Positions 2,175 to 20,783 of a stretch of 64,000 nt of DNA are shown in pieces. The DNA is from Photobacterium sp. GJ3. GTDB taxonomy: Bacteria; Pseudomonadota; Gammaproteobacteria; Enterobacterales; Vibrionaceae. The notes beneath the pieces are model-generated. The model had not been told where the DNA came from. It did no database searches and saw only the letters and a list, made by a program, of their open reading frames with translations. The stretch is taken from the NCBI RefSeq assembly GCF_018199995.1, contig NZ_CP073578.1, positions 1,860,001 through 1,924,000 on the forward strand. The letters run 5' to 3'. Every line of letters starts with the position of its first letter. Position 1 is the first letter of the stretch. A program made the position numbers and the translations under genes.

Positions 2175-2630
2175 TCAGGCGATGGGAGGACGGTACAGCG
2201 ACGACGCTGTCGAGACCGCAGCCACAACGGCTTCGGTGGGTCGCAGTGCCAGTTGGCTCAGGAGATTGAAAGGACGATAAGGCGCAGGCAGCACCATGGC
2301 CGTTCCGCACAACACGGTGCAGCAGGGATGAGCATCTTTATCATGCTTGCAGGGGCCGCTCACGTTGTCTTGCGGCGGCTGTGCGTGCCTGTCATGGCTG
2401 CCGGATGCATGATGGTGCGCGTCGGACGTCATGCTGCCTTCAGGCTCGGCATGATGAGGCATGCCTGCACAATGTATCATTGCGGTTGAAGATTGCGCTG
2501 GGGCAGACAAACTGTCACTGATCATGCTGATCGCCATCAGCGATGCACTGTTCGCCACACTCGACACCAGAAGTGTCAGTGCAGTCAGCAGTGTGATCCA
2601 GATTGTCCGGTTTGAATTCCGACGCATCAT
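2175..2630 (-). CDS. Small secreted His/Cys-rich metal-binding protein (DUF2946-like)
   Basis: A 151-residue protein with an N-terminal hydrophobic signal segment (WITLLTALTLLVSSVANSAS), then a middle rich in His, Asp and Met (MPHHAEPEGSM, DAHHHASGSHDRHAQPP), then Cys residues in HPCCTVLCGTAM. The pattern resembles DUF2946-type proteins found with copper-resistance genes, and periplasmic metal binding is inferred. It is the first gene downstream of the MerR-type promoter at 2657-2687 and is followed after ~100 bp by the efflux outer membrane gene. Two adjacent ATGs (2630, 2627) could serve as start. The family name is uncertain. Confidence 0.75.
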   Translation of the reverse strand: MMRRNSNRTIWITLLTALTLLVSSVANSASLMAISMISDSLSAPAQSSTAMIHCAGMPHHAEPEGSMTSDAHHHASGSHDRHAQPPQDNVSGPCKHDKDAHPCCTVLCGTAMVLPAPYRPFNLLSQLALRPTEAVVAAVSTASSLYRPPIA

Positions 2631-2656
2631 CAGCCTTAAGCAGTTACAACGGCATC

Positions 2657-2687
2657 ACCATAAAGCTTCCCCTAGGGGGAAGGTCAA
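2657..2687 (-). promoter_or_regulatory. MerR-family (CueR-like) metal-responsive promoter
   Basis: Reading the minus strand, a -35 TTGACC (2682-2687) and a -10 TATGGT (2657-2662) are separated by 19 bp instead of the usual 17. The spacer holds the dyad CTTCCCC-CTA-GGGGAAG (2666-2682). An over-long spacer filled by such an inverted repeat is the hallmark of promoters activated by MerR-type regulators, and the half-site resembles CueR operators (ACCTTCCCC). It lies 27 bp upstream of the His-rich protein gene. No MerR-family gene is in the window, so the regulator must act in trans. Confidence 0.85.
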
Positions 2688-2857
2688 TATTGATGAACTC
2701 ATCTTCTGTAAAAAATGGACAAAGGACAAAAAAGTGCAAGCTGTTCAGCCACGAGACTGGTGGTTTTACGGCTGATTCTCAGCACTGTGACAGATTCGCG
2801 TCGCGATGAGGTCCCATAGAGACCATCATCTGAAGAAGGATTAGCTGAGGATCGGAT

Positions 2858-3400
2858 ATGAAAAAATGGGCAGTTCCTACCTGGGCGCTGGTTGCCACTG
2901 GGCTTCTGCTGAATATTCTCTCGGCCCTGATGACCAACTTTTATATCGAAGGGACAACGGTTGAAGCGAACCGTCTGGTACAGCAGCAGCATGGAAACGA
3001 CAAGCTGATCAGCCTGACCTGGCAGCAAATCGAATCGCTCGAGCAGAAAAAAGAGCTCGTCCTGATTCTGGTTTCAATATCGGAAACCAGTCAGGCAAGT
3101 CTACCGGTATCCGTCGCCCAAGAGTTACAGCGCCAGCTGGAACACTGGCAAGTGTCGATCCCCGCAGCCCTGTCAGCAGAAAGCGTCCAGCACACCATGA
3201 CAGCGGTCAATGCGGAGCAGGCCCTGCTCAGAGACAAAATCAATCAACTCTTTATTGATAATCTGGCCCTGAATTCAGAGTACGCCCAGCGTATGACAAC
3301 CATCTCCGGGTTGAGAAGTTTGGCTCTTTTTCTGCAAATTATCGGACTCGCGCTCATTCTTGCCCGGGATCTCAGCTGGCGGCAGGATCGGAATGAGTGA
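2858..3400 (+). CDS. Small membrane protein of unknown function, two TM helices around a periplasmic helical domain
   Basis: 180 residues with a TM helix at about 8-27, a long polar, Gln/Glu-rich helical region (about 35-150), and a second TM helix near 155-172 followed by a short charged tail. The architecture resembles a sensor-type periplasmic domain without an output module. No family was recognised. The gene is divergent from the metal-efflux operon and reads into the repeat array. The start at 2858 has a purine-rich region (GAGGATCGG) upstream. Confidence 0.7.
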   Translation: MKKWAVPTWALVATGLLLNILSALMTNFYIEGTTVEANRLVQQQHGNDKLISLTWQQIESLEQKKELVLILVSISETSQASLPVSVAQELQRQLEHWQVSIPAALSAESVQHTMTAVNAEQALLRDKINQLFIDNLALNSEYAQRMTTISGLRSLALFLQIIGLALILARDLSWRQDRNE

Positions 3401-4942
3401 GTCTGTCGTCATGTGTCATTGCAGTTAAAATAACCTTTGGTCGTTCCCGTGCAGGCGGAAACTCATGTAAGACAATGATTTTAAAGTCATTCGTCGTTCC
3501 CACGAAGGCGAGAACCCAGTGACGTTCATGCGCGGGAATGACGGTAAGTGGTTGAATTTAAAATCATTCGTCGTTCCCGCGCAGGCGGGAACCCAGTGAC
3601 GTTCATGCGCCGAAGCCTCGTCTGAGCGCTGTGAACAGTTCTACAGAATAACTGTACTTTGCTGGGATTTGATCTGTGCAATGGTGTTCTGAACGCGCTT
3701 AGAGCCCAGCGCTTTATGGATTCCCGCCTGCGCGGGAATGACGATAAGTAAATGAATTTAAACATATTTGTCGTTCCCGCGAAGGCGGGAACCCAGTGAC
3801 GTTCATGCGCCGGAGCCTCGTCTGAGCGTTGTGAACAGTTCTACAGAATGACTGAACTTTGCTGTGATTTGATCTGTTCAATGGTGTTTTGAGCGTGCTT
3901 TGAGCCCGGCGCCCTATGGATTCCCGCCTGCGCGGGAATGACGGTAAGTAAATGAATTTAAAGTCATTCGTCGTTCCCGCGAAGGCGGGAACCCAGTGAC
4001 GTTCATGCGCCGGAGCCTCGTCTTCGCGCTATGAACAATGCTGCAAAATGGCTGAACTTTGCTGGGATTTGATCTGTGCAATGATGTTGTGAACGCGCTT
4101 TGAGTCCGGCGCCCTATGGATTCCCGCCTGCGCGGGAATGACAGTAAGTAGATGAATTTAAAGTCATTCGTCGTTCCCGCGAAGGCGGGAACCCAGTGAC
4201 GTTGATGCGCCGGAGGCTCGTCTTCGCGCTGTGAACAGTTCTACAGAGTGGCTGAACTTTGCTGGGATTGTATCTGTGCAATGATGTTGTGAACGCGCTT
4301 TGAGTCCGGCGATCTATAGATTCCCGCCTGCGCGGGAATGACGGTAATCGTATGAATTATATAAAATTTGTCGTTCCCGCGAAGGCGGGAACCCAGTGAC
4401 GTTGATGCGCTGAAGGCTCGTCTGAGCGCTGTGAACAATGCGACAGAAAGACTGAACTTTGCTGCGATTTTGTCTGTTCAATGATGTTTTGAACGCGCTT
4501 AGAGCCCAGCGCTTTATGGATTCCCGCCTGCGCGAAAATGACGGTAAGTAAATGAATTTAAAATCATTCGTCGTTCCCGCGCAAGCGGGAACCCAGTGAC
4601 GTTCATGCGCTGAAGCCTCGTCTGAGCGCTGTGAACAATGCGACAGAAAGACTGAACTTTGCTGCGATTTTGTCTGTTCAATGATGTTTTGAACGCGCTT
4701 AGAGCCCAGCGCTTTATGGATTCCCGCCTGCGCGAAAATGACGGTAAGTAAATGAATTTAAAATCATTCGTCGTTCCCGAGAAGGCGGGAACCCAGTGAC
4801 GTTGATGCGCTGAAGGCTCGTCTGAGCGCTATGAACAATGCTGCAAAATGGCTGAACTTTGCTGGGATTTGATCTGTGCAATGATGTTGTGAACGCGCTT
4901 TGAGCCCTGCGCCCTATGGATTCCCGCCTGCGCGGGAATGAC

Positions 4943-5203
4943 GGAATTTTGCATTGACGGTATCAAAAGAAATCACAACCCCAGGGAAAAATTCATGGAT
5001 GAATTTTTAGGGTGTCGGCGCCGGGAGCGCCTACAACCGGCCCGGACCACACGAGAGAAACAAAAGGCATTTCTGGATACTCTTTGTGCCAGCAAAGAGT
5101 ATCTGGCGCGCATTAAAAAATGCTGCATTAGGCACTGTTCTCAAGCGCGACATACCCGCACAACTTTAGACATGCAAGCGCTGAATGGATTCCCGCCTTC
5201 GCG
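4943..5203 (+). repeat. Structured ~260-bp element, copy 1
   Basis: This unit replaces the normal 200-bp body after the seventh repeat. It contains a stem of 11 bp (GATACTCTTTG / CAAAGAGTATC), the palindrome AAATTCATGGATGAATTT, a GC-rich hairpin GGCGCCGGGAGCGCC, and ends in the standard palindrome B. By eye it is identical over its whole length to the copy at 8459-8719, while neighbouring 200-bp units differ at many positions. An ORF spans it, but I do not consider it coding. The IS4 element is inserted in its terminal palindrome. Confidence 0.85.
5194..5203. repeat. Left target-site duplication of the IS4-family element
   Basis: CGCCTTCGCG here and CGCCTGCGCG at 6642-6651 flank the element directly and match at 9 of 10 positions. 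Joining the flanks restores the palindrome ATTCCCGCC-GCGGGAAT. The single T/G mismatch may be a later mutation or a sign of recombination between array copies. Confidence 0.75.
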
Positions 5204-6641
5204 CAATGCTGATCGTTTAAGGAAAATTAAGGACTTGAACGATCCTTAATTTCGAGCAAACTATCGGTTCAACTGAAAGGAGCCTGTATGTTTGCTGCTG
5301 AATTAGAAGACTTTTCTTCAAGCTACCCACTCAAGAATGATTATTTAGAGGTGTTAAATGCTCACTTGCCCTTTGAGTGGGTCAACAATGCCTTGAGCAT
5401 GACATCTCATGCTACGGTCAGGCGTCGCAAAATTCAGCCGCAAGATATCCTCAGGCTCGTGATTGGAATGTCTTTGCTTAGGCAAGAGTCTATCCATACG
5501 GTCGCTGAGCAATTAGCTTTAAATTCCAAACAGTTAGATAATGCACTGCTGTCTGCTAAAAGCTCATTAACTGAGGCTCGTAAAAGGTTGGGCGTCGAGC
5601 CCATTCAGTGGCTCTTTCATCAAAGCGCCAGTCACTGGTCAGAACAAGTTGAGGTCGATAAATGGGAAGGTCTCAGAGTTTATGCCATTGATGGTACCCA
5701 ATTCCGTGTAGAAGATACGCCAGAATGCCGAGAGCATTTTGGCTCTGCAAACACGGCTTCCGAGTACCAGTCCGGCTATCCAGTAATGCAGTTGACCTGC
5801 TTAATGGATACCGCTTCGCGGTTGATCCTTAAAGCAGCAGCCGGACCTTATCGAGAGGCTGAAATCACGCAAGCATCACAGTTGGTGGATGATATCGACG
5901 ATCACTCAGTCCTGCTGATGGATAAGCTCTATCATAGTGCTGAGTTGCTTCATCATATTGAAAGTCGAGGTCATGATCGCCACTGGGTGACACCATTGAA
6001 GAAAGACATCAACTTTGAAATCGTGGATAAATACACGGATAACGACTGGTTGGTGAAACGAAAGCTAAGCCCCCATGCGCGTAAACAGTCACCATCATTA
6101 CCGCAAGAGTGGCACTTTCGGGTCATCCGCTATCAATTTGAAGGCTTCCCGGAACGCTTTCTCGCGACATCGTTACCGAAAAGTCAGTATGATGCCGCTA
6201 AAATTATCGAACTCTATCATCAGCGTTGGGAAATTGAACTAGGATATCGTGAAATTAAATGCACGATGCTCCGCAAAGCCATTGCCTTAAGAAGTAAGAA
6301 AATTACTTTGGTCTACCAGGAATTATACGGGCTGTTACTTGCTTATAATTTGATCCGTTACGAAATGGCTCTAGCGGCAAAGGAGGCGAAAGTTAGCCCT
6401 CTAAGAATCAGCTTTAAACTCGGTTTTAAGGTCGTTTTGTATGATTATACAGCGATATGCCAGACGAAAAACTTACAGTCGATACCAGCACGACTCAAAG
6501 ATTTAACGGATACTCTGAAAGATCTGATTCTCCCCAAGCCAGACCGCCCAAATTATGAAAGGGCGGTCAAGATGAGGCCGAATAAATATCCGTTAAAAAG
6601 CAACAGAAAAAAGAAGGAATCCTCTTAACCGAACAGCATTG
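5204..6641 (+). mobile_element. Complete IS4-family insertion sequence (1438 bp)
   Basis: The ends are imperfect terminal inverted repeats. The left end starts CAATGCTGATCGTTTAAGG and the reverse complement of the right end starts CAATGCTGTTCGGTTAAGA. These resemble the ends of E. coli IS4, as remembered (AATGCCGATCAGTTAAGGA), and the length is close to that of IS4 (about 1.43 kb). One transposase gene fills the element. It is flanked by a 10-bp direct repeat (5194-5203 / 6642-6651, one mismatch) located exactly in the centre of a repeat palindrome. Intact ends and ORF suggest a recent, potentially active insertion. Confidence 0.92.
5288..6628 (+). CDS. IS4-family transposase (DDE, InsG-like)
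   Basis: 446 residues, close to the 442 of IS4 InsG. The N-terminal ~20-110 region matches the IS4 N-terminal domain. The RNase H-like catalytic core shows D135 in YAIDGTQFR, D212 in LLMDKLYH and E317 within the YREK signature (Y310, R313, E317, K324 in YHQRWEIELGYREIK). The start is supported by AAAGGAG eight bases upstream. It catalyses cut-and-paste transposition of its own element. The frame is undamaged and the C-terminus is Lys-rich as usual for the family. Confidence 0.95.
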   Translation: MFAAELEDFSSSYPLKNDYLEVLNAHLPFEWVNNALSMTSHATVRRRKIQPQDILRLVIGMSLLRQESIHTVAEQLALNSKQLDNALLSAKSSLTEARKRLGVEPIQWLFHQSASHWSEQVEVDKWEGLRVYAIDGTQFRVEDTPECREHFGSANTASEYQSGYPVMQLTCLMDTASRLILKAAAGPYREAEITQASQLVDDIDDHSVLLMDKLYHSAELLHHIESRGHDRHWVTPLKKDINFEIVDKYTDNDWLVKRKLSPHARKQSPSLPQEWHFRVIRYQFEGFPERFLATSLPKSQYDAAKIIELYHQRWEIELGYREIKCTMLRKAIALRSKKITLVYQELYGLLLAYNLIRYEMALAAKEAKVSPLRISFKLGFKVVLYDYTAICQTKNLQSIPARLKDLTDTLKDLILPKPDRPNYERAVKMRPNKYPLKSNRKKKESS

Positions 6642-6651
6642 CGCCTGCGCG
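6642..6651. repeat. Right target-site duplication of the IS4-family element
   Basis: CGCCTGCGCG directly abuts the right inverted repeat and pairs with CGCCTTCGCG at 5194-5203. It continues into GGAATGAC, the right half of the interrupted palindrome. Confidence 0.75.
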
Positions 6652-8458
6652 GGAATGACAGTAAGACGATGAATTTAAAGTCATTCGTCGTTCCCGCGAA
6701 GGCGGGAACCCAGTGACGTTCATGCGCTGGAGCCTCGTCTGGGTGCTGTGAACCGTTCTACAGAGTGGCTGAACTTTGCTGGGATTTTATCTGTGCAATG
6801 ATGTTGTGAACGCGCTTTGAGTCCGGCGATCTATAGATTCCCGCCTGCGCGGGAATGACGGTAAGTGGTTGAATTTGAACATATTCGTCGTTCCCGCGAA
6901 GGCGGGAACCCAGTGACGTTCATGCGCCGGAGCCTCGTCTGAGCGTTGTGAACAGTTCTACAGAGTGGCTGAACTTTGCTGGGATTTTATCTGTGCAATG
7001 ATGTTGTGAACGCGCTTTGAGCCCGGCGCCCTATGGATTCCCGCCTTCGCGGGAATGACAGTAACCATATGAATTGTATTAGATTTGTCGTTCCCGCGAA
7101 GGCGGGAACCCAGTGACGTTGATGCGCCGGAGCCTCGTCTGAGCGCTGTGAACAGTTCTACAGAATAACTGTACTTTGCTGGGATTGTATCTGTTCAATG
7201 GTGTTTTGAACGCGCTTTGAGCCCGGCGCCCTATGGATTCCCGCCTGCGCGAAAGTGGCGGTAAAATGATGAATTTAAAGTCATTCGTCGTTCCCGAGAA
7301 GACGGGAATCCAGTGACGTTCATGCGCCGGAGCCTCGTCTGAGCGCTGTGAACAATGCTGCAAAATGGCTGAACTTTGCTGGGATTTGATCTGTTCAATA
7401 ATGATTTTCGTGTGTTTGTAGCCCGGCGCTCTATGGATTCCCGCCTGCGCGGGAATGACGGTAATCGTATGAATTATATAAAATTTGTCGTTCCCGCGAA
7501 GGCGGGAACCCAGTGACGTTGATGCGCTGGAGCCTCGTCTGAGCGCTGTGAACAATGCGACAGAAAGACTGAACTTTGCTGCGATTTTGTCTGTTCAATG
7601 ATGTTTTGAACGCGCTTAGAGCCCAGCGCTTTATGGATTCCCGCCTGCGCGGGAATGACGGTAATCGTATGAATTATATAAAATTTGTCGTTCCCGCGAA
7701 GGCGGGAACCCAGTGACGTTGATGCGCTGGAGCCTCGTCTGAGCGCTGTGAACAATGCGACAGAAAGACTGAACTTTGCTGCGATTTTGTCTGTTCAATG
7801 ATGTTCTGAACGCGCTTAGAGCCCAGCGCTTTATGGATTCCCGCCTGCGCGAAAATGACGGTAAGTAAATGAATTTAAAATCATTCGTCGTTCCCGAGAA
7901 GGCGGGAACCCAGTGACGTTGATGCGCTGAAGGCTCGTCTGAGCGCTATGAACAATGCTGCAAAATGGCTGAACTTTGCTGTGATTGTATCTGTTCAATG
8001 ATGTTGTGCATGCGCTTTGAGTCCGGCGCTCTATGGATTCCCGCCTGCGCGGGAATGACGGTAAGTAAATGAATTTAAAATTATTTGTCGTTCCCGCGAA
8101 GGCGGGAACCCAGTGACGTTGATGCGCCGGAGCCTCGTCTTCGCGCTATGAACAATTCTGCAAAATGGCTGAACTTTGCTGGGATTTGATCTGTGCAATG
8201 ATGTTGTGAACGCGCTTTGAGCCCGGCGCTCTATGGATTCCCGCCTGCGCGGGAATGACGGTAATCGCATGAATTATATAAAATTTGTCGTTCCCGCGAA
8301 GGCGGGAACCCAGTGACGTTGATGCGCTGGAGCCTCGTCTGAGCGCTGTGAACCGTTCTACAGAATGACTGAACTTTGCTGGGATTTTATCTGTGCAATG
8401 ATGTTGTGCATGTGCTTTGAGCCCTGCGCCCTATGGATTCCCGCCTGCGCGGGAATGA

Positions 8459-8719
8459 CGGAATTTTGCATTGACGGTATCAAAAGAAATCACAACCCCA
8501 GGGAAAAATTCATGGATGAATTTTTAGGGTGTCGGCGCCGGGAGCGCCTACAACCGGCCCGGACCACACGAGAGAAACAAAAGGCATTTCTGGATACTCT
8601 TTGTGCCAGCAAAGAGTATCTGGCGCGCATTAAAAAATGCTGCATTAGGCACTGTTCTCAAGCGCGACATACCCGCACAACTTTAGACATGCAAGCGCTG
8701 AATGGATTCCCGCCTGCGC
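8459..8719 (+). repeat. Structured ~260-bp element, copy 2 (uninterrupted)
   Basis: By eye identical to the copy at 4943-5203, but its final palindrome is intact (ATTCCCGCCTGCGCGGGAAT), so it shows the pre-insertion state of the IS4 target. A third, internally deleted copy follows at about 8790-8850: the first ~50 bp (from TTGACGGTATC to AAATTCATG) joined directly to the terminal palindrome. Confidence 0.85.
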
Positions 8720-8897
8720 GGGAATGACAGTAAGTAGATGAATCATATAAATTTTTCAGTTACGACATAAGCGGGAATGACAGTTTTTTGCTTTGACGGT
8801 ATCAAAAGAAATCACAACCCCAGGGAAAAATTCATGAATGGATTCCCGCAAAGGCGGGAACCCAGGTAATAAATTGATTTAAATGACAAAACCCACC

Positions 8898-9416
8898 TCA
8901 GGCCAGCCAGAGACGCGCGAGCATCCCCATTGGCGTGGTGATACCACTGGTGATGGATTCAACTTTGCCATCCCGGACGATGAAGATCGTCGGGGTGAAA
9001 GCCACACCCCACTGGCGGCCCAGCACATTATTTGGATCGTTCACATTCGGAAAATCCAGCGCTTTATGCTCGAAATATCGCTGCAACTTTTCATCCGGTC
9101 CGGATGAGAGCGAAATCCCGACTGTCGGATAATACTGGCTCAGCCAGTTGACACTCGGCGTCACAAAACGGCAGACACCACACCAGGTGGCCCAGTAATA
9201 GACCAGCACGGGCTGGTCCTGACTCAGCGCAGCCAGATCAACTGGCTGGCCGTGAATATCTGTCGCTTTCAGCGTAAAAGGCACATCATCCGGTACAGAC
9301 TGGCTTCGCCAGAGATCTGCCGCCACGGTCACCCCCGTCAGCAGCACGGAAAAGAACGCAATTTCCCTGAGCCACTTTTTCCAGCCTGTCGCTTTCGATG
9401 TCGTTTGCTCAGCCAT
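8898..9416 (-). CDS. scsD: ScsD/TlpA-like membrane-anchored thioredoxin-fold protein
   Basis: 172 residues from ATG 9416, chosen because GGAG lies 9 bases upstream and the start overlaps the end of scsB by 8 bp; the frame is open to 9443. One N-terminal TM anchor (about 18-34) is followed by a periplasmic thioredoxin fold with the redox motif WC79GVC82 and a cis-Pro loop in VAFTPTIFIV. The family (ScsD, suppressor of copper sensitivity) handles disulfide reduction in the periplasm and is supplied with electrons by the ScsB/DsbD-type transporter. The overlap with scsB indicates translational coupling. The gene is convergent with the repeat array. Confidence 0.85.
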   Translation of the reverse strand: MAEQTTSKATGWKKWLREIAFFSVLLTGVTVAADLWRSQSVPDDVPFTLKATDIHGQPVDLAALSQDQPVLVYYWATWCGVCRFVTPSVNWLSQYYPTVGISLSSGPDEKLQRYFEHKALDFPNVNDPNNVLGRQWGVAFTPTIFIVRDGKVESITSGITTPMGMLARLWLA

Positions 9417-11520
9417 GTTCCGCCTCTCCTTTGGCCTGCTCAATCGCCTGCATCACTTGTTCACTGGTATAAATTACGGGCAGCGGGATCCCTTCCGGGG
9501 CCGCGGGTCCGTACACAATATTAAACGGCACACCAAATCGTCCATAGGATTGTAAATACGACGTGACCGTATCATTCGGGATGGTCCAGTCACCACGGAT
9601 CCGGACCATGCCCGGCTGCTGAAGTGCATCATAGACAGGTTGCTGCAACAGCACTCTGATTTTGTTCGCTTTACAGGTGATACACCAATCCGCAGTGACA
9701 TCCACAAACACGGTATTCCCCTGCGCAACGGCCTGATCAATCGCCTGAACCGACAGCGGTTGCCATTCGAGTTCCGGTGGCAACGGTGTTGCCCATCGAT
9801 CAGCCGTCATACTGCCCATCAGCAGCACTGCAGCCCCACCCAGCAGGAAGACACTGCTCAGAACACCCACAGATTTTCCGCCATAAACGCGCACGCTACG
9901 CCAGAGAATCCCGGCAACCGCCACGAGCCCGGTCAGCCACAAGGTCCAGATCGGCCAATGGGGAGACAACAGCGTCAGCAACCAGACTGTGGTCGCCAGC
10001 ATCATCAGTCCAAACACGACCTTCATTTTCCCCATCCAGGCACCGGGTTTAGGGAACAGGCGCACCAGAGACGGGAACACCGCAATCACAATCCAGGGCA
10101 GTGCCATGCCGAGTCCCAGACCGGTAAAGATCCACGCCAGTTGGAGATAACTGCCCGCCAGCGCAAAAGCCACCGCCGTGCCCAGAAATGGCGCCGAACA
10201 CGGGGTAGCCAGAAATGTCGCAAACATCCCTTGCGCGAAATGTCCGCTGTAGCCATTTCCGTTCCGGGTGCCCAGCCAGGTGCTGAGTCCGGAGGGTAAA
10301 CGAATCTCAAACAAGCCCAGCATGTTGGCGCCGAAAATCAAGGTCATGCCCGCCATGAGCGCCAGAAAGCCAGCACTCTGAAACTGAATCCCCCAGCCAA
10401 TCACCTGACCGGAAAATTTCAGCACACCCAGCACCAGTGCAATCAGCCAGAAAGCACTGACAATCCCACCGGATGATGCCAGAAACTGCCATCGAATCTG
10501 ACGCTTTTCCTGATGTTCTGCGGTCAGCACGGTTGACAGCTTCATCCCCAGAACCGGTAATACACAGGGCATGATATTCAGAATCAACCCGCCAACCAGC
10601 GCCAGACCAAACATCACCAGTACGCTGGTTTGTGTCGCTGATTGAATGACTCCGGCTTCAACCTGGACCGGATATTCAGCCAGCATGGCCTGGTCTTTCA
10701 CAGTCAGCCGGACAGACTGGCCACTGAGATCGGGTTCACCAAACCAGCTGGACACACGAAATACCGCCGTCAGCGTATTCCCGTCGATTTGCACACTGGG
10801 TTTGGCGAAGCTGCTGTCTTTCACGGCATCGGTATCACCATCGATAAAAGCATCCGGCTCTTGCCAGCCTTGCGGGCTGGTCAGCGTCACCTGTAACTGT
10901 TGCTGCTGTGTATCCCAGATGGCCCGAACCGATTCAGGCGCGGCAGGCGCCGCCGGGACCAGACTCATCGCCTGTGCATAGCGGCTGACCTCAGGGCCGG
11001 ATGGCTGTAGTTCCGACGGAATAAATGACAGATCAACCGGATAATCGGTGATCACGCAAACGGTGGAGCAGGATGACAAACTCAGGTTTGCCAGCAGAAT
11101 CACCGGTTGCGAAAAGTCTTCGACCGTCAGTGTCATCGGGAAGATCACATCCCCGGCATAACCAATGGTTTCCACACCGAGCACGTCATAGCGCTCCGGC
11201 GCTGGCCAGTGCCAGGACAGATCGCGCAGGTTGGCAGAATCCTGCCAGTTCATCGTAGGGGCGACACCGCCTTCACCCGGGGATCGCCAGTACGTTTTCC
11301 AGCCCTTGGCTAACCGGACTTCCAGATAACCTGCCACCGTGCCCTGCGACGGATCAGTCTGGCCCGTCAGCACAAAACGTGTTTCCACCGGTGGATGTTT
11401 GGGATCGCTCAACCAGGGCGTACTGACTGGCGCCGCCTGAATGGCTGCAGCAAACCACAAACACAGGCCCAGCCACCCGAAGCGGAACAGGCGTAATATT
11501 AAGAGGGAGTTACTTCGCAT
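9409..11520 (-). CDS. scsB: ScsB/DsbD-type transmembrane thiol-disulfide electron transporter
   Basis: 703 residues. Signal peptide (about 1-29); a large periplasmic alpha domain with a Cys pair in SLSSCSTVC; an eight-helix TM beta domain with the characteristic NIMPCVLPVLGMK and LATPCSAPFLG cysteine-proline motifs; and a C-terminal periplasmic thioredoxin-like gamma domain with VTADWCITCKANK. This is the ScsB arrangement, which passes electrons from cytoplasmic thioredoxin to periplasmic partners and supports copper tolerance. It overlaps scsD by 8 bp. A DsbA-like ScsC gene, often present in such loci, is absent here. Confidence 0.9.
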   Translation of the reverse strand: MRSNSLLILRLFRFGWLGLCLWFAAAIQAAPVSTPWLSDPKHPPVETRFVLTGQTDPSQGTVAGYLEVRLAKGWKTYWRSPGEGGVAPTMNWQDSANLRDLSWHWPAPERYDVLGVETIGYAGDVIFPMTLTVEDFSQPVILLANLSLSSCSTVCVITDYPVDLSFIPSELQPSGPEVSRYAQAMSLVPAAPAAPESVRAIWDTQQQQLQVTLTSPQGWQEPDAFIDGDTDAVKDSSFAKPSVQIDGNTLTAVFRVSSWFGEPDLSGQSVRLTVKDQAMLAEYPVQVEAGVIQSATQTSVLVMFGLALVGGLILNIMPCVLPVLGMKLSTVLTAEHQEKRQIRWQFLASSGGIVSAFWLIALVLGVLKFSGQVIGWGIQFQSAGFLALMAGMTLIFGANMLGLFEIRLPSGLSTWLGTRNGNGYSGHFAQGMFATFLATPCSAPFLGTAVAFALAGSYLQLAWIFTGLGLGMALPWIVIAVFPSLVRLFPKPGAWMGKMKVVFGLMMLATTVWLLTLLSPHWPIWTLWLTGLVAVAGILWRSVRVYGGKSVGVLSSVFLLGGAAVLLMGSMTADRWATPLPPELEWQPLSVQAIDQAVAQGNTVFVDVTADWCITCKANKIRVLLQQPVYDALQQPGMVRIRGDWTIPNDTVTSYLQSYGRFGVPFNIVYGPAAPEGIPLPVIYTSEQVMQAIEQAKGEAEHG

Positions 11521-19868: not shown

Positions 19869-20783
19869 ATGATGACCATCGCAAACAACCTTGAAAGCGC
19901 CAATAAAAAAGCCGCACTGAAAGCTGCGGACAAAATCGACTGGCGTGAACTCTTCTTCAAATATCTGTTTTTAGCGAGTGCCGTTCTGGGCATTCTCTCT
20001 CTGATCACCATTGCCTATTTTATTTTCCGTGAAGGCTATGCCGCGTTTGCAGAAGCCGGTGTTGGCGGGATTGTTCTGGGTGATGAGTGGCTGCCACCTG
20101 CATTATTCGGTATTTTCCCGATGATCGTCGCATCTGTTGTCTCGACAGCAGGGGCGGTGATTCTGGGTGTCCCGGTGGGTGTGATGACCGCTATCTTCAT
20201 TGCTGAAATCGCGCCAAAGCGCGTTGCAGATATCATTCGCCCGATGGTGGAACTACTGGCAGGCATCCCTTCTGTAGTTTACGGTTTCTTCGGCCTGGTG
20301 ATTATCGTTCCCCTGATTCAGAACGTCTTTGAAGTTCCGGCCGGGAATACGGTTCTGGCCGGGATTATCGTTCTGGCAGTGATGATTCTGCCCACGGTGA
20401 TCACGGTTTCAGAAACCTCGATTCGTGCGGTACCGCGCAGTTATAAAGAGGGCTCGCTGGCACTGGGTGCCTCGCACATTTTCACCATTTTCAAACTGCT
20501 GGTGCCAGCAGCACGTTCAGGCATCATGACCGGTGTGATTTTGGGGATTGCCCGAGCGCTGGGTGAAACCATGGCGATCATCATGGTCATGGGGAACTCT
20601 CCGGCACTGCCACGCGGTATTCTTGATTCCGCCCGGACCCTGACTGCAAACATTGCGATCGAAATGTCCTACGCCACCGGTATTCATGCCAGCGCACTGT
20701 ATGCCACAGGCATTGTCCTGCTGGTGTTTATCATGATGCTGAATGCGGCCCTGCTCTACCTGAACCGTGAGCGTGCGAGGTAA
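19869..20783 (+). CDS. pstC: Phosphate ABC transporter permease PstC
   Basis: 304 residues with six TM helices. The permease EAA-type loop SYKEGSLALGASHIFTIFKLLVP interacts with PstB. LAGIPSVVYGFFGL is the conserved PstC/PstA stretch, and ARALGETMAIIMVMGN is characteristic of PstC. It forms the membrane channel with PstA for phosphate entry. GGAG lies 6 bases ahead of ATG 19869 (a second ATG follows directly). pstA starts 5 bp after the stop. Confidence 0.95.
   Translation: MMTIANNLESANKKAALKAADKIDWRELFFKYLFLASAVLGILSLITIAYFIFREGYAAFAEAGVGGIVLGDEWLPPALFGIFPMIVASVVSTAGAVILGVPVGVMTAIFIAEIAPKRVADIIRPMVELLAGIPSVVYGFFGLVIIVPLIQNVFEVPAGNTVLAGIIVLAVMILPTVITVSETSIRAVPRSYKEGSLALGASHIFTIFKLLVPAARSGIMTGVILGIARALGETMAIIMVMGNSPALPRGILDSARTLTANIAIEMSYATGIHASALYATGIVLLVFIMMLNAALLYLNRERAR

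Follow-up and report, generated by a model that had tools for sequence, protein, structure and literature searches.

A 16-unit array of repeats in Photobacterium sp. GJ3 probably arose by local tandem amplification of CGTC-1-type REP pairs, accompanied by gene-conversion-like exchange between the copies. The array occupies the intergenic gap between two convergent genes in the stretch of DNA that we analyzed (64,000 nt, hereafter the window). Its units are recombinational mosaics, with linkage between variants fading within tens of bases. Most likely the cell simply tolerates the array as selfish or by-product DNA; it resembles a bacterial form of satellite DNA whose copies evolve in concert.

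Layout of the array and its borders

The units fall into two blocks (7 + 9), and spacing is exactly 200 bp in 14/14 in-block intervals. Tandem Repeats Finder returned a period of 200 for both block 1 (3529–4944; 7.1 copies, 89% matches, 0% indels) and block 2 (6642–8461; 9.1 copies, 88% matches, 0% indels). The original prediction of sixteen 200-bp-period units that differ in sequence was therefore borne out on both counts, with a difference of ∼11% among units within a locus. Forward palindromes start at 3569, 3769, and so on to 4769 in block 1 and at 6686, 6886, and so on to 8286 in block 2. The features are as follows:

2858..3400, + strand: left flanking gene, 180 aa, array-facing (ORF list)
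3439..3518, + strand: left border, two decayed forward REPs starting at 3439 (3 mismatches) and 3492 (2 mismatches)
3569..4943, + strand: first array block, with 7 units of head-to-head REPs repeating every 200 bp exactly
4944..5203, + strand: 260-bp cassette copy 1, a three-hairpin repeat, its terminal REP split by the insertion sequence
about 5204..6641, + strand: complete insertion sequence of the IS4 family, interrupting a REP within its central 10 bp
5288..6628, + strand: IS4-family transposase, 446 aa (NCBIfam NF033592, 260 bits; cut-off 115)
6686..8460, + strand: second array block, with 9 units of head-to-head REPs, again repeating every 200 bp exactly
8461..8720, + strand: 260-bp cassette copy 2, continuing into a reverse REP at 8703-8729
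8756..8864, + strand: right border, with a decayed reverse REP at 8756 (5 mismatches), a fragment of the cassette at 8786-8844, and a decayed forward REP at 8838 (3 mismatches)
8898..9443, − strand: right flanking gene, thioredoxin/redoxin-like, 181 aa, array-facing

The region had been taken for a single 5.4-kb array, which it is not: an IS4-family element and two 260-bp cassettes are interleaved with the units. The cassette copies are identical over their matched 260 bp. Part of block 1 recurs in block 2 in diverged form, with two units more. The insertion sequence has an IS4 transposase (also matched by Pfam Nterm_IS4 and DDE_Tnp_1), inverted ends, and a target duplication of about 10 bp, seen here as a near-duplication with one mismatch (5194-5203/6642-6651). 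All six copies of this element (6/6) lie in REPs; by our own reading of their ends, the 10-bp target duplications are perfect in 3/6 and carry one mismatch in 3/6. An assembly artefact is an unlikely source of the array because units vary by about a tenth per locus, arrays occur at many loci, and related species have their own arrays.

The left flanking gene had no match in Pfam and NCBIfam searches. Both flanking genes are neighbors in three relatives. The same locus in related genomes had been proposed as a check, and in the three nearest relatives we found the slot without an array; in two relatives it appears, on our reading, to hold a terminator-type hairpin unseen in the window. At three other slots where both flanking genes are conserved, REPs are also present in a relative, and at one of these the relative's array is built from a different cassette. 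Such empty or differently filled slots in related species serve as natural controls.

The REP family, its genomic distribution and the search for a mobilizer

Each unit consists of two 20-bp palindromes in opposite orientation (head-to-head CGTC-tagged REPs), a 121-bp core, and a 25-bp linker. The earlier view of the unit as one palindrome needs correcting, the core being non-palindromic. The cited passages of PMC3733652 define CGTC-1 REPs by an unpaired CGTC (or TGTC) tag, an 8-bp stem, a 4-base loop, and a CCA-type tail. Here, one REP end bears the unpaired CGTC (or TGTC) tag, each stem position is paired in 90%–100% of 123 units, loops are of 4 bases, and the tail is CC(C)A in most copies. 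The left REP departs from the family norm in its first stem pair, which is mostly G-C instead of A-T. The right-hand REP, ATTCCCGCCTGCGCGGGAAT, matches the Nf1-type dRS3 pattern ATTCCCRCCTRCGCGGRAAK, as quoted in the relevant part of PMC3898611, and a 400-bp array query matched Neisseria gonorrhoeae records over only 43 bp (89%), which is the palindrome. Judged by sequence, the window REP fits the published CGTC-1 family (dRS3 in Neisseria), and its description as REP-like in the original prediction can be narrowed to the CGTC-1/dRS3 type.

A search of the whole genome for the REP pattern (≤2 mismatches) gave 286 matches, compared with 0 for a reversed control pattern. These near-perfect REPs are overwhelmingly clustered (284/286 in 15 clusters; 2/286 solitary). 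The 13 stretches we analyzed hold 285 of the 286, 1 of these 285 being solitary. Among neighboring REP pairs (n = 291), 133 are head-to-head and 129 tail-to-tail, and 123/133 head-to-head spacers measure 119–122 bp. The independent families of spacers are too few to support a claim of helical phasing. Most larger clusters (12/14) are on contig C2, by inference the second chromosome, along which core orientation changes six times (from counts); replichore-dependent orientation was not seen there. The 121-bp core is present at the array loci of 12/13 stretches, with differing linkers. The same genome also has arrays with other periods, and the longest run of one unit reaches 22 units (45 REPs, locus L021). 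The window's 200-bp unit is found at seven other loci as well, which requires some inter-locus movement.

These dispersed copies raise the alternative of an active miniature transposon, in which REP pairs would be moved in trans by a RAYT, IS200-type, IS110-type, or other enzyme and arrays would form by repeated adjacent insertion. The shared core with different linkers is in its favor, and REPINs are a known precedent (cited part of PMC3116915). Sub-cut-off RAYT-like matches occurred in 6/6 same-genus genomes with a CGTC REP within one mismatch, as opposed to 17/46 of the others, in which none was found (52 genomes in all; Fisher p 0.005, kinship not corrected). The same account is opposed by the near absence of solitary REPs, and repeated insertion is not expected to give exact 200-bp spacing. 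Nor did the enzyme searches supply a candidate. A RAYT-type (Y1) transposase elsewhere in the genome had been suggested as a check; above the NF047646 cut-off (80 bits) there was none in the own genome or among all 52 same-genus genomes (own included), and a RAYT mobilizer is not supported. For five sub-cut-off matches in the own genome (about 310–320 aa, 28–35 bits), the roughly 1.5 kb around them contained no CGTC REP, and scanning about 1.5 kb at 10 Y1-gene loci gave a sole CGTC-REP-like match, with 6 mismatches (L012). A Neisseria phage integrates at dRS3, so we also considered an IS110/Piv-type recombinase: There were 2 matches over the cut-off, and no CGTC REP adjoined any of the 5 loci scanned. 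Phages as carriers were likewise unsupported, a viral contig collection (viral_contigs) giving 0 exact matches to one 23-base pattern. REPINs with RAYTs have a RAYT gene flanked by the same REP, of GTAG type, and mobile MITEs are dispersed single copies with target duplications; here no RAYT gene was found above the cut-off, the tag is CGTC or TGTC, and the REPs are seldom single. According to the cited passages of PMC3733652, CGTC REPs have been reported without a dedicated transposase. On this evidence we consider a miniature transposon unlikely. The earlier suggestion of an amplified non-autonomous element remains the best supported of those offered, except that amplification looks local and tandem, with no mobilizer found.

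Exchange among units and tests of host roles

Variation was compared across 123 units (11 loci for per-locus tests). Unit identity is higher within loci (0.890) than between loci (0.843). Adjacent units were no closer than in shuffled order in any of the 11 loci (p 0.06–0.81), so direct signs of recent slippage are lacking. In the pooled set, linkage falls from r2 0.23 at 1–5 bp to 0.03 at 61–120 bp, and 98.8% of site pairs have all four combinations; for each of six sets, 0/300 permutations matched the observed steepness. Among the 16 units of the window itself, the decay is weak (0.27 to 0.11). Common core variants are widely shared, with 55/60 segregating in ≥2 of 11 loci.

Local amplification with exchange would proceed as follows. 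A REP pair would rarely arrive in a new intergenic gap; the array would then grow or shrink by whole units via unequal recombination or template switching, perhaps triggered by hairpin stalling or breakage. Short gene-conversion-like exchanges would hold the units of one locus similar, and a REP-seeking IS4 element would afterward have inserted into the array. With nearly all near-perfect REPs in arrays and so many comparable units, amplification, exchange, and loss become directly measurable.

A more elaborate proposal treats the segments between REPs as a system dedicated to exchange, with CGTC palindromes as crossover points and non-coding cassettes swapped by a putative recombinase. If true, the 121-bp core, linkers, and three-hairpin cassette would be swapped between units, loci, and chromosomes, so that one slot would come to carry a 336-bp REP-pair array in one species and a roughly 319-bp different-cassette array in another. 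Such a system, located mainly on the second chromosome, would be the non-coding equivalent of cassette systems. We regard this proposal as quite unlikely.

Near-constant length and conserved palindromes could also mean structural selection. As originally predicted, the array might be a selected site for gyrase, IHF, HU, or another protein at evenly spaced palindromes. Pairwise difference is indeed lower in the two palindromes (0.075 and 0.042) than in the core (0.207), and the head-to-head spacers are nearly constant. However, the slot lacks an array in the three relatives, 46 of the 52 same-genus genomes lack a CGTC REP within one mismatch, the same genome has arrays of other periods, and homogenizing recombination could likewise hold length constant. 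From sequence comparison, a structural site appears unlikely.

It had also been proposed that the array, lying between convergent genes, serves as a terminator bank for transcription. The window's gap and 7/14 clusters with assignable neighbors lie between convergent genes, and the hairpin in the relatives' slot would agree with the idea, but 6 clusters are in codirectional and 1 in divergent gaps. The only terminator-like site in 2850-9500 is outside the array, compared with 7.6 ± 2.7 in shuffles, making a terminator bank extremely improbable.

An RNA element in the unit core was rejected, with no conserved fold on the + strand (−2.1 vs. −2.9 ± 2.0; 60 column shuffles) or the − strand (0.0 vs. 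−0.4 ± 0.8; column shuffles). In Rfam searches, positions 2500-9500 of the window yielded 17 matches with E values of at most 0.5, all under gathering scores, while six loci had none that reached the gathering threshold.

Comparison with known repeat systems

The window REPs share with CGTC-1/dRS3 (Di Nocera 2013; PMC3733652, PMC3898611, cited passages) the tag, 8-bp stem, 4-base loop, CCA tail, and head-to-head pairing. CGTC families are described in that part of PMC3733652 as mainly head-to-head pairs, with clusters and tail-to-tail pairs rare except in Neisseria and Wolbachia, whereas here nearly all REPs are clustered and 129/291 neighboring pairs are tail-to-tail. That arrangement is typical of the family without defining it.

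The ISRm22 element offers a parallel for the insertion: All nine of its copies are inside REPs, according to the cited part of PMC1525189, and ours is likewise an IS4-family element sitting in REPs. It is a different element in another genus, and here the target is a CGTC REP, struck in its central 10 bp.

In Pseudomonas fluorescens SBW25, up to 12 REPs alternate at spacings of 112 and 72 bp (Bertels and Rainey 2011; PMC3116915, cited part). Our REPs similarly alternate at two fixed spacings at several loci; unlike there, where the same passages place RAYT genes adjacent and report replichore-dependent orientation, we found no RAYT.

The excerpted account in PMC3898611 presents NIMEs as intergenic mosaics of several repeat families, 200–2700 bp long, with dRS3-type palindromes at their bounds. 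The present array is also intergenic and mixes REPs with the core, linkers of several types, and the 260-bp cassette, but differs in that its period is regular and a single unit is repeated in long runs. By analogy, it seems to work like a NIME; NIMEs carry Neisseria-specific RS repeat sequences between the palindromes, and we do not claim that the array is one. Overall, the array appears to resemble Neisseria NIMEs and Pseudomonas tandem REPs in its working but is far more clustered.

Layout of the array and its interruption

The genome comprises 5.31 Mb in three contigs, with the window on C1 (bases 1860001–1924000). The constant 200-bp period claimed in the original prediction was confirmed: Tandem Repeats Finder reported two blocks (3529–4944 and 6642–8461) with 0% indels, and the 200-bp step was exact in 14 out of 14 in-block intervals (forward REP starts 3569–4769 and 6686–8286). 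Each unit runs from a forward REP (a 20-bp CGTC-tagged palindrome) through a 121-bp core and a reverse REP to a 25-bp linker. The predicted continuity of the array did not hold: one copy of a 260-bp cassette, followed by an IS4-family element, stands between the two blocks.

Features interleaved with the REP blocks (window positions)
4944–5203: 260-bp cassette, copy 1, between the blocks
5204–6641: IS4-family element, between the blocks
8461–8720: 260-bp cassette, copy 2, after block 2, identical to copy 1

Decayed REPs form the outer borders on both sides, and the flanking genes are convergent, one encoding a 180-aa protein that matched no family and the other being thioredoxin-like. Elsewhere in the window, an 18-bp tandem repeat (2.4 copies) lies at 20334–20377.

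All six full copies of the IS element in this genome were found inside CGTC clusters, each interrupting the middle 10 bp of a REP, with target duplications that were perfect in three cases and had one mismatch in three. Both shortened copies in Vibrio cincinnatiensis were likewise centered in REP-like palindromes, with matching 10-bp flanks. ISRm22 is a known IS4-family case of REP targeting (excerpts of PMC1525189). The gap within the array is explained by IS insertion; the array itself is not.

IS4-family copies, own genome and Vibrio cincinnatiensis
Window 5204–6641
Contig C2, at 185k, 423k, 1254k, 1257k and 1428k
Loci L057 and L073

The cassette has a strongly conserved three-hairpin structure, in which some paired changes affect both sides. 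The consensus folding energy of 29 copies (four from our genome, 20 from relative G032, and five from G011) was −39.8, compared with −9.5 ± 3.0 for 100 column shuffles, and no Rfam family matched at gathering. Besides the window, copies occur at own-genome loci L016 and L019 and in the relatives' stretches L133–L135, L137, L139, and L140. The cassette is present in seven same-genus genomes, builds tandem arrays of its own in three (G032, G011, and G063), and in G062 occurs without any CGTC REP (≤1 mismatch).

REP clusters across the genome and the genus

A 400-bp query taken from the array had 235 matches in its own genome. The REP pattern (≤2 mismatches) matched 286 times, compared with zero for a reversed control pattern; 284 matches grouped in 15 clusters and two were solitary. 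The 13 stretches analyzed covered 285 out of 286, one of them solitary (L026). Clusters were concentrated on C2, the smaller chromosome-like contig, which makes up 32% of the genome and carries 12 of the 14 larger clusters (at least five REPs each; one-sided binomial p ∼5e-5). The two large contigs (3.60 and 1.69 Mb), together with the close IS relatives in V. cincinnatiensis (83% and 95% identity in best segments), suggest a two-chromosome vibrio genome.

Geometry was largely uniform, with head-to-head spacers of 119–122 bp in 123 out of 133 cases and tail-to-tail linkers of 25 bp in 97 out of 129. Some loci combine the same core with other linkers, giving steps of mostly 336 bp (L022), ∼317–363 bp (L024), ∼238 bp (L025), or mixed length (L023). 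Locus L024 also holds a second array (2698–4251) of 18 head-to-tail REP copies with a 90-bp period; a T2SSF-domain gene on one side and a 300-aa ORF on the other share a strand, and this array apparently sits inside an operon. As judged by predicted ORFs, a few of which were checked against Pfam, tRNA, or orthologue hits, neighboring genes were convergent at seven clusters, codirectional at six, and divergent at one (14 clusters, L015 left out). The suggestion that the units form a terminator bank between convergent genes was not supported by our tests.

CGTC REPs (≤1 mismatch) were found in six out of 52 same-genus genomes, with 254 in our genome, 33 in G019, 24 in G032, four in G067, and three each in G011 and G063. 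The 400-bp query matched three out of 35 same-genus relatives, with first-look candidates scored in part, and all matches were short and REP-centered. For the right flanking gene, orthologues in G032, G019, and G011 show 72%–75% identity (≤48% elsewhere among the matches listed). In these three genomes, the two flanking genes are adjacent, and the gap of roughly 70–105 bp has no REP at ≤6 mismatches, so the window slot either acquired its content once the lineages had separated or lost it in the other genomes. Eight REP-bearing stretches of relatives were compared with our cluster slots; having been picked for their REPs, they are not a random sample. Both flanking genes were conserved at three (L135 = L022, L137 = L025b, L138 = L016), genes were common on one side only at L139 (near L019b), and L133, L134, L136, and L140 matched no own-genome REP cluster slot. 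The slot shared by L022 and L135 holds 336-bp REP-pair units in our genome and an array of the three-hairpin cassette, with 319-bp steps, in G032.

Concerted evolution of REP units

We aligned 123 head-to-head units with spacers of 118–123 bp, leaving out 10 out of 133 of other lengths. Mean identity was 0.890 within loci and 0.843 between them (Fst-like value 0.30), and 55 out of 60 common core variants segregated at two or more of the 11 loci. Adjacent units showed no significant excess likeness over shuffled order in any of the 11 loci (p 0.06–0.81). Linkage between core variants fell from a pooled r2 of 0.23 at 1–5 bp to 0.03 at 61–120 bp, and more weakly in the window's 16 units alone (0.27 to 0.11). 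None of 300 permutations gave as steep a decay in any of six sets (pooled, window, L016, L019, L020, and L021). For 98.8% of site pairs in the pooled set, and for 55%–75% within single loci, all four variant combinations occurred.

Variation was low in the two palindromes (0.075 and 0.042) and high in the core (0.207); in the left stem, the outermost pair was G-C in 100 out of 123 units and A-T in 14. The core as a conserved RNA fold was not supported by our tests. We counted at least 231 substitutions against only ten gapped columns, a ratio that exclusion of other-length units biases towards few indels.

Within the window, two units of block 1 (4369 and 4569), taken together with their linkers, correspond to 7486 and 7686 (95.3%); unit 4769 likewise corresponds to unit 7886 (94.9%), and the match between the cassettes is 100%. 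Two additional units precede the second cassette relative to the matched segment of block 1, indicating that a segment was duplicated and unit number changed later. Taken together, these observations amount to concerted evolution of the REP units by recombination with short tracts. These tracts may reflect gene conversion, with exchange possibly initiated at the hairpins.

We favor local tandem amplification combined with recombinational exchange as the way in which arrays grew once first copies had reached a locus. No REP-associated (RAYT) transposase scored above the curated cut-off in our genome or in 52 same-genus genomes, and a scan of 10 Y1 and five IS110 loci for adjoining REPs gave a single REP-like match, with six mismatches. 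Counting against tandem amplification is a genus-level association: RAYT-like matches below the cut-off occurred in six out of six CGTC-positive genomes and 17 out of 46 others (p 0.005, kinship ignored). Our genome encodes five such proteins (L045–L049; ∼310–320 aa, scoring below the NF047646 cut-off), with no CGTC REPs within ∼1.5 kb.

Comparison with known repeats

Our literature search, which mostly lacked subscription papers and is thus weak evidence of absence, found no description of comparable arrays in vibrios; in the accessible text of RepRanger 2025 (PMC12306157), Vibrio is absent and the case is not described. The accessible portion of Di Nocera 2013 defines CGTC-1, equates it with Neisseria dRS3, and describes clusters as rare except in Neisseria and Wolbachia and an associated transposase as lacking. 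The window array is a member of this CGTC-1 REP family, and its highly clustered arrangement is new. Its right-hand REP fits the phage Nf1 target pattern in a 2009 Neisseria review, by whose excerpted account NIME arrays span 200–2700 bp (PMC3898611). Bertels and Rainey 2011, in the part available, report GTAG repeats arrayed regularly, with spacings that alternate (PMC3116915). In its behavior, the array resembles both the NIMEs of Neisseria and the tandem REPs of Pseudomonas fluorescens SBW25.
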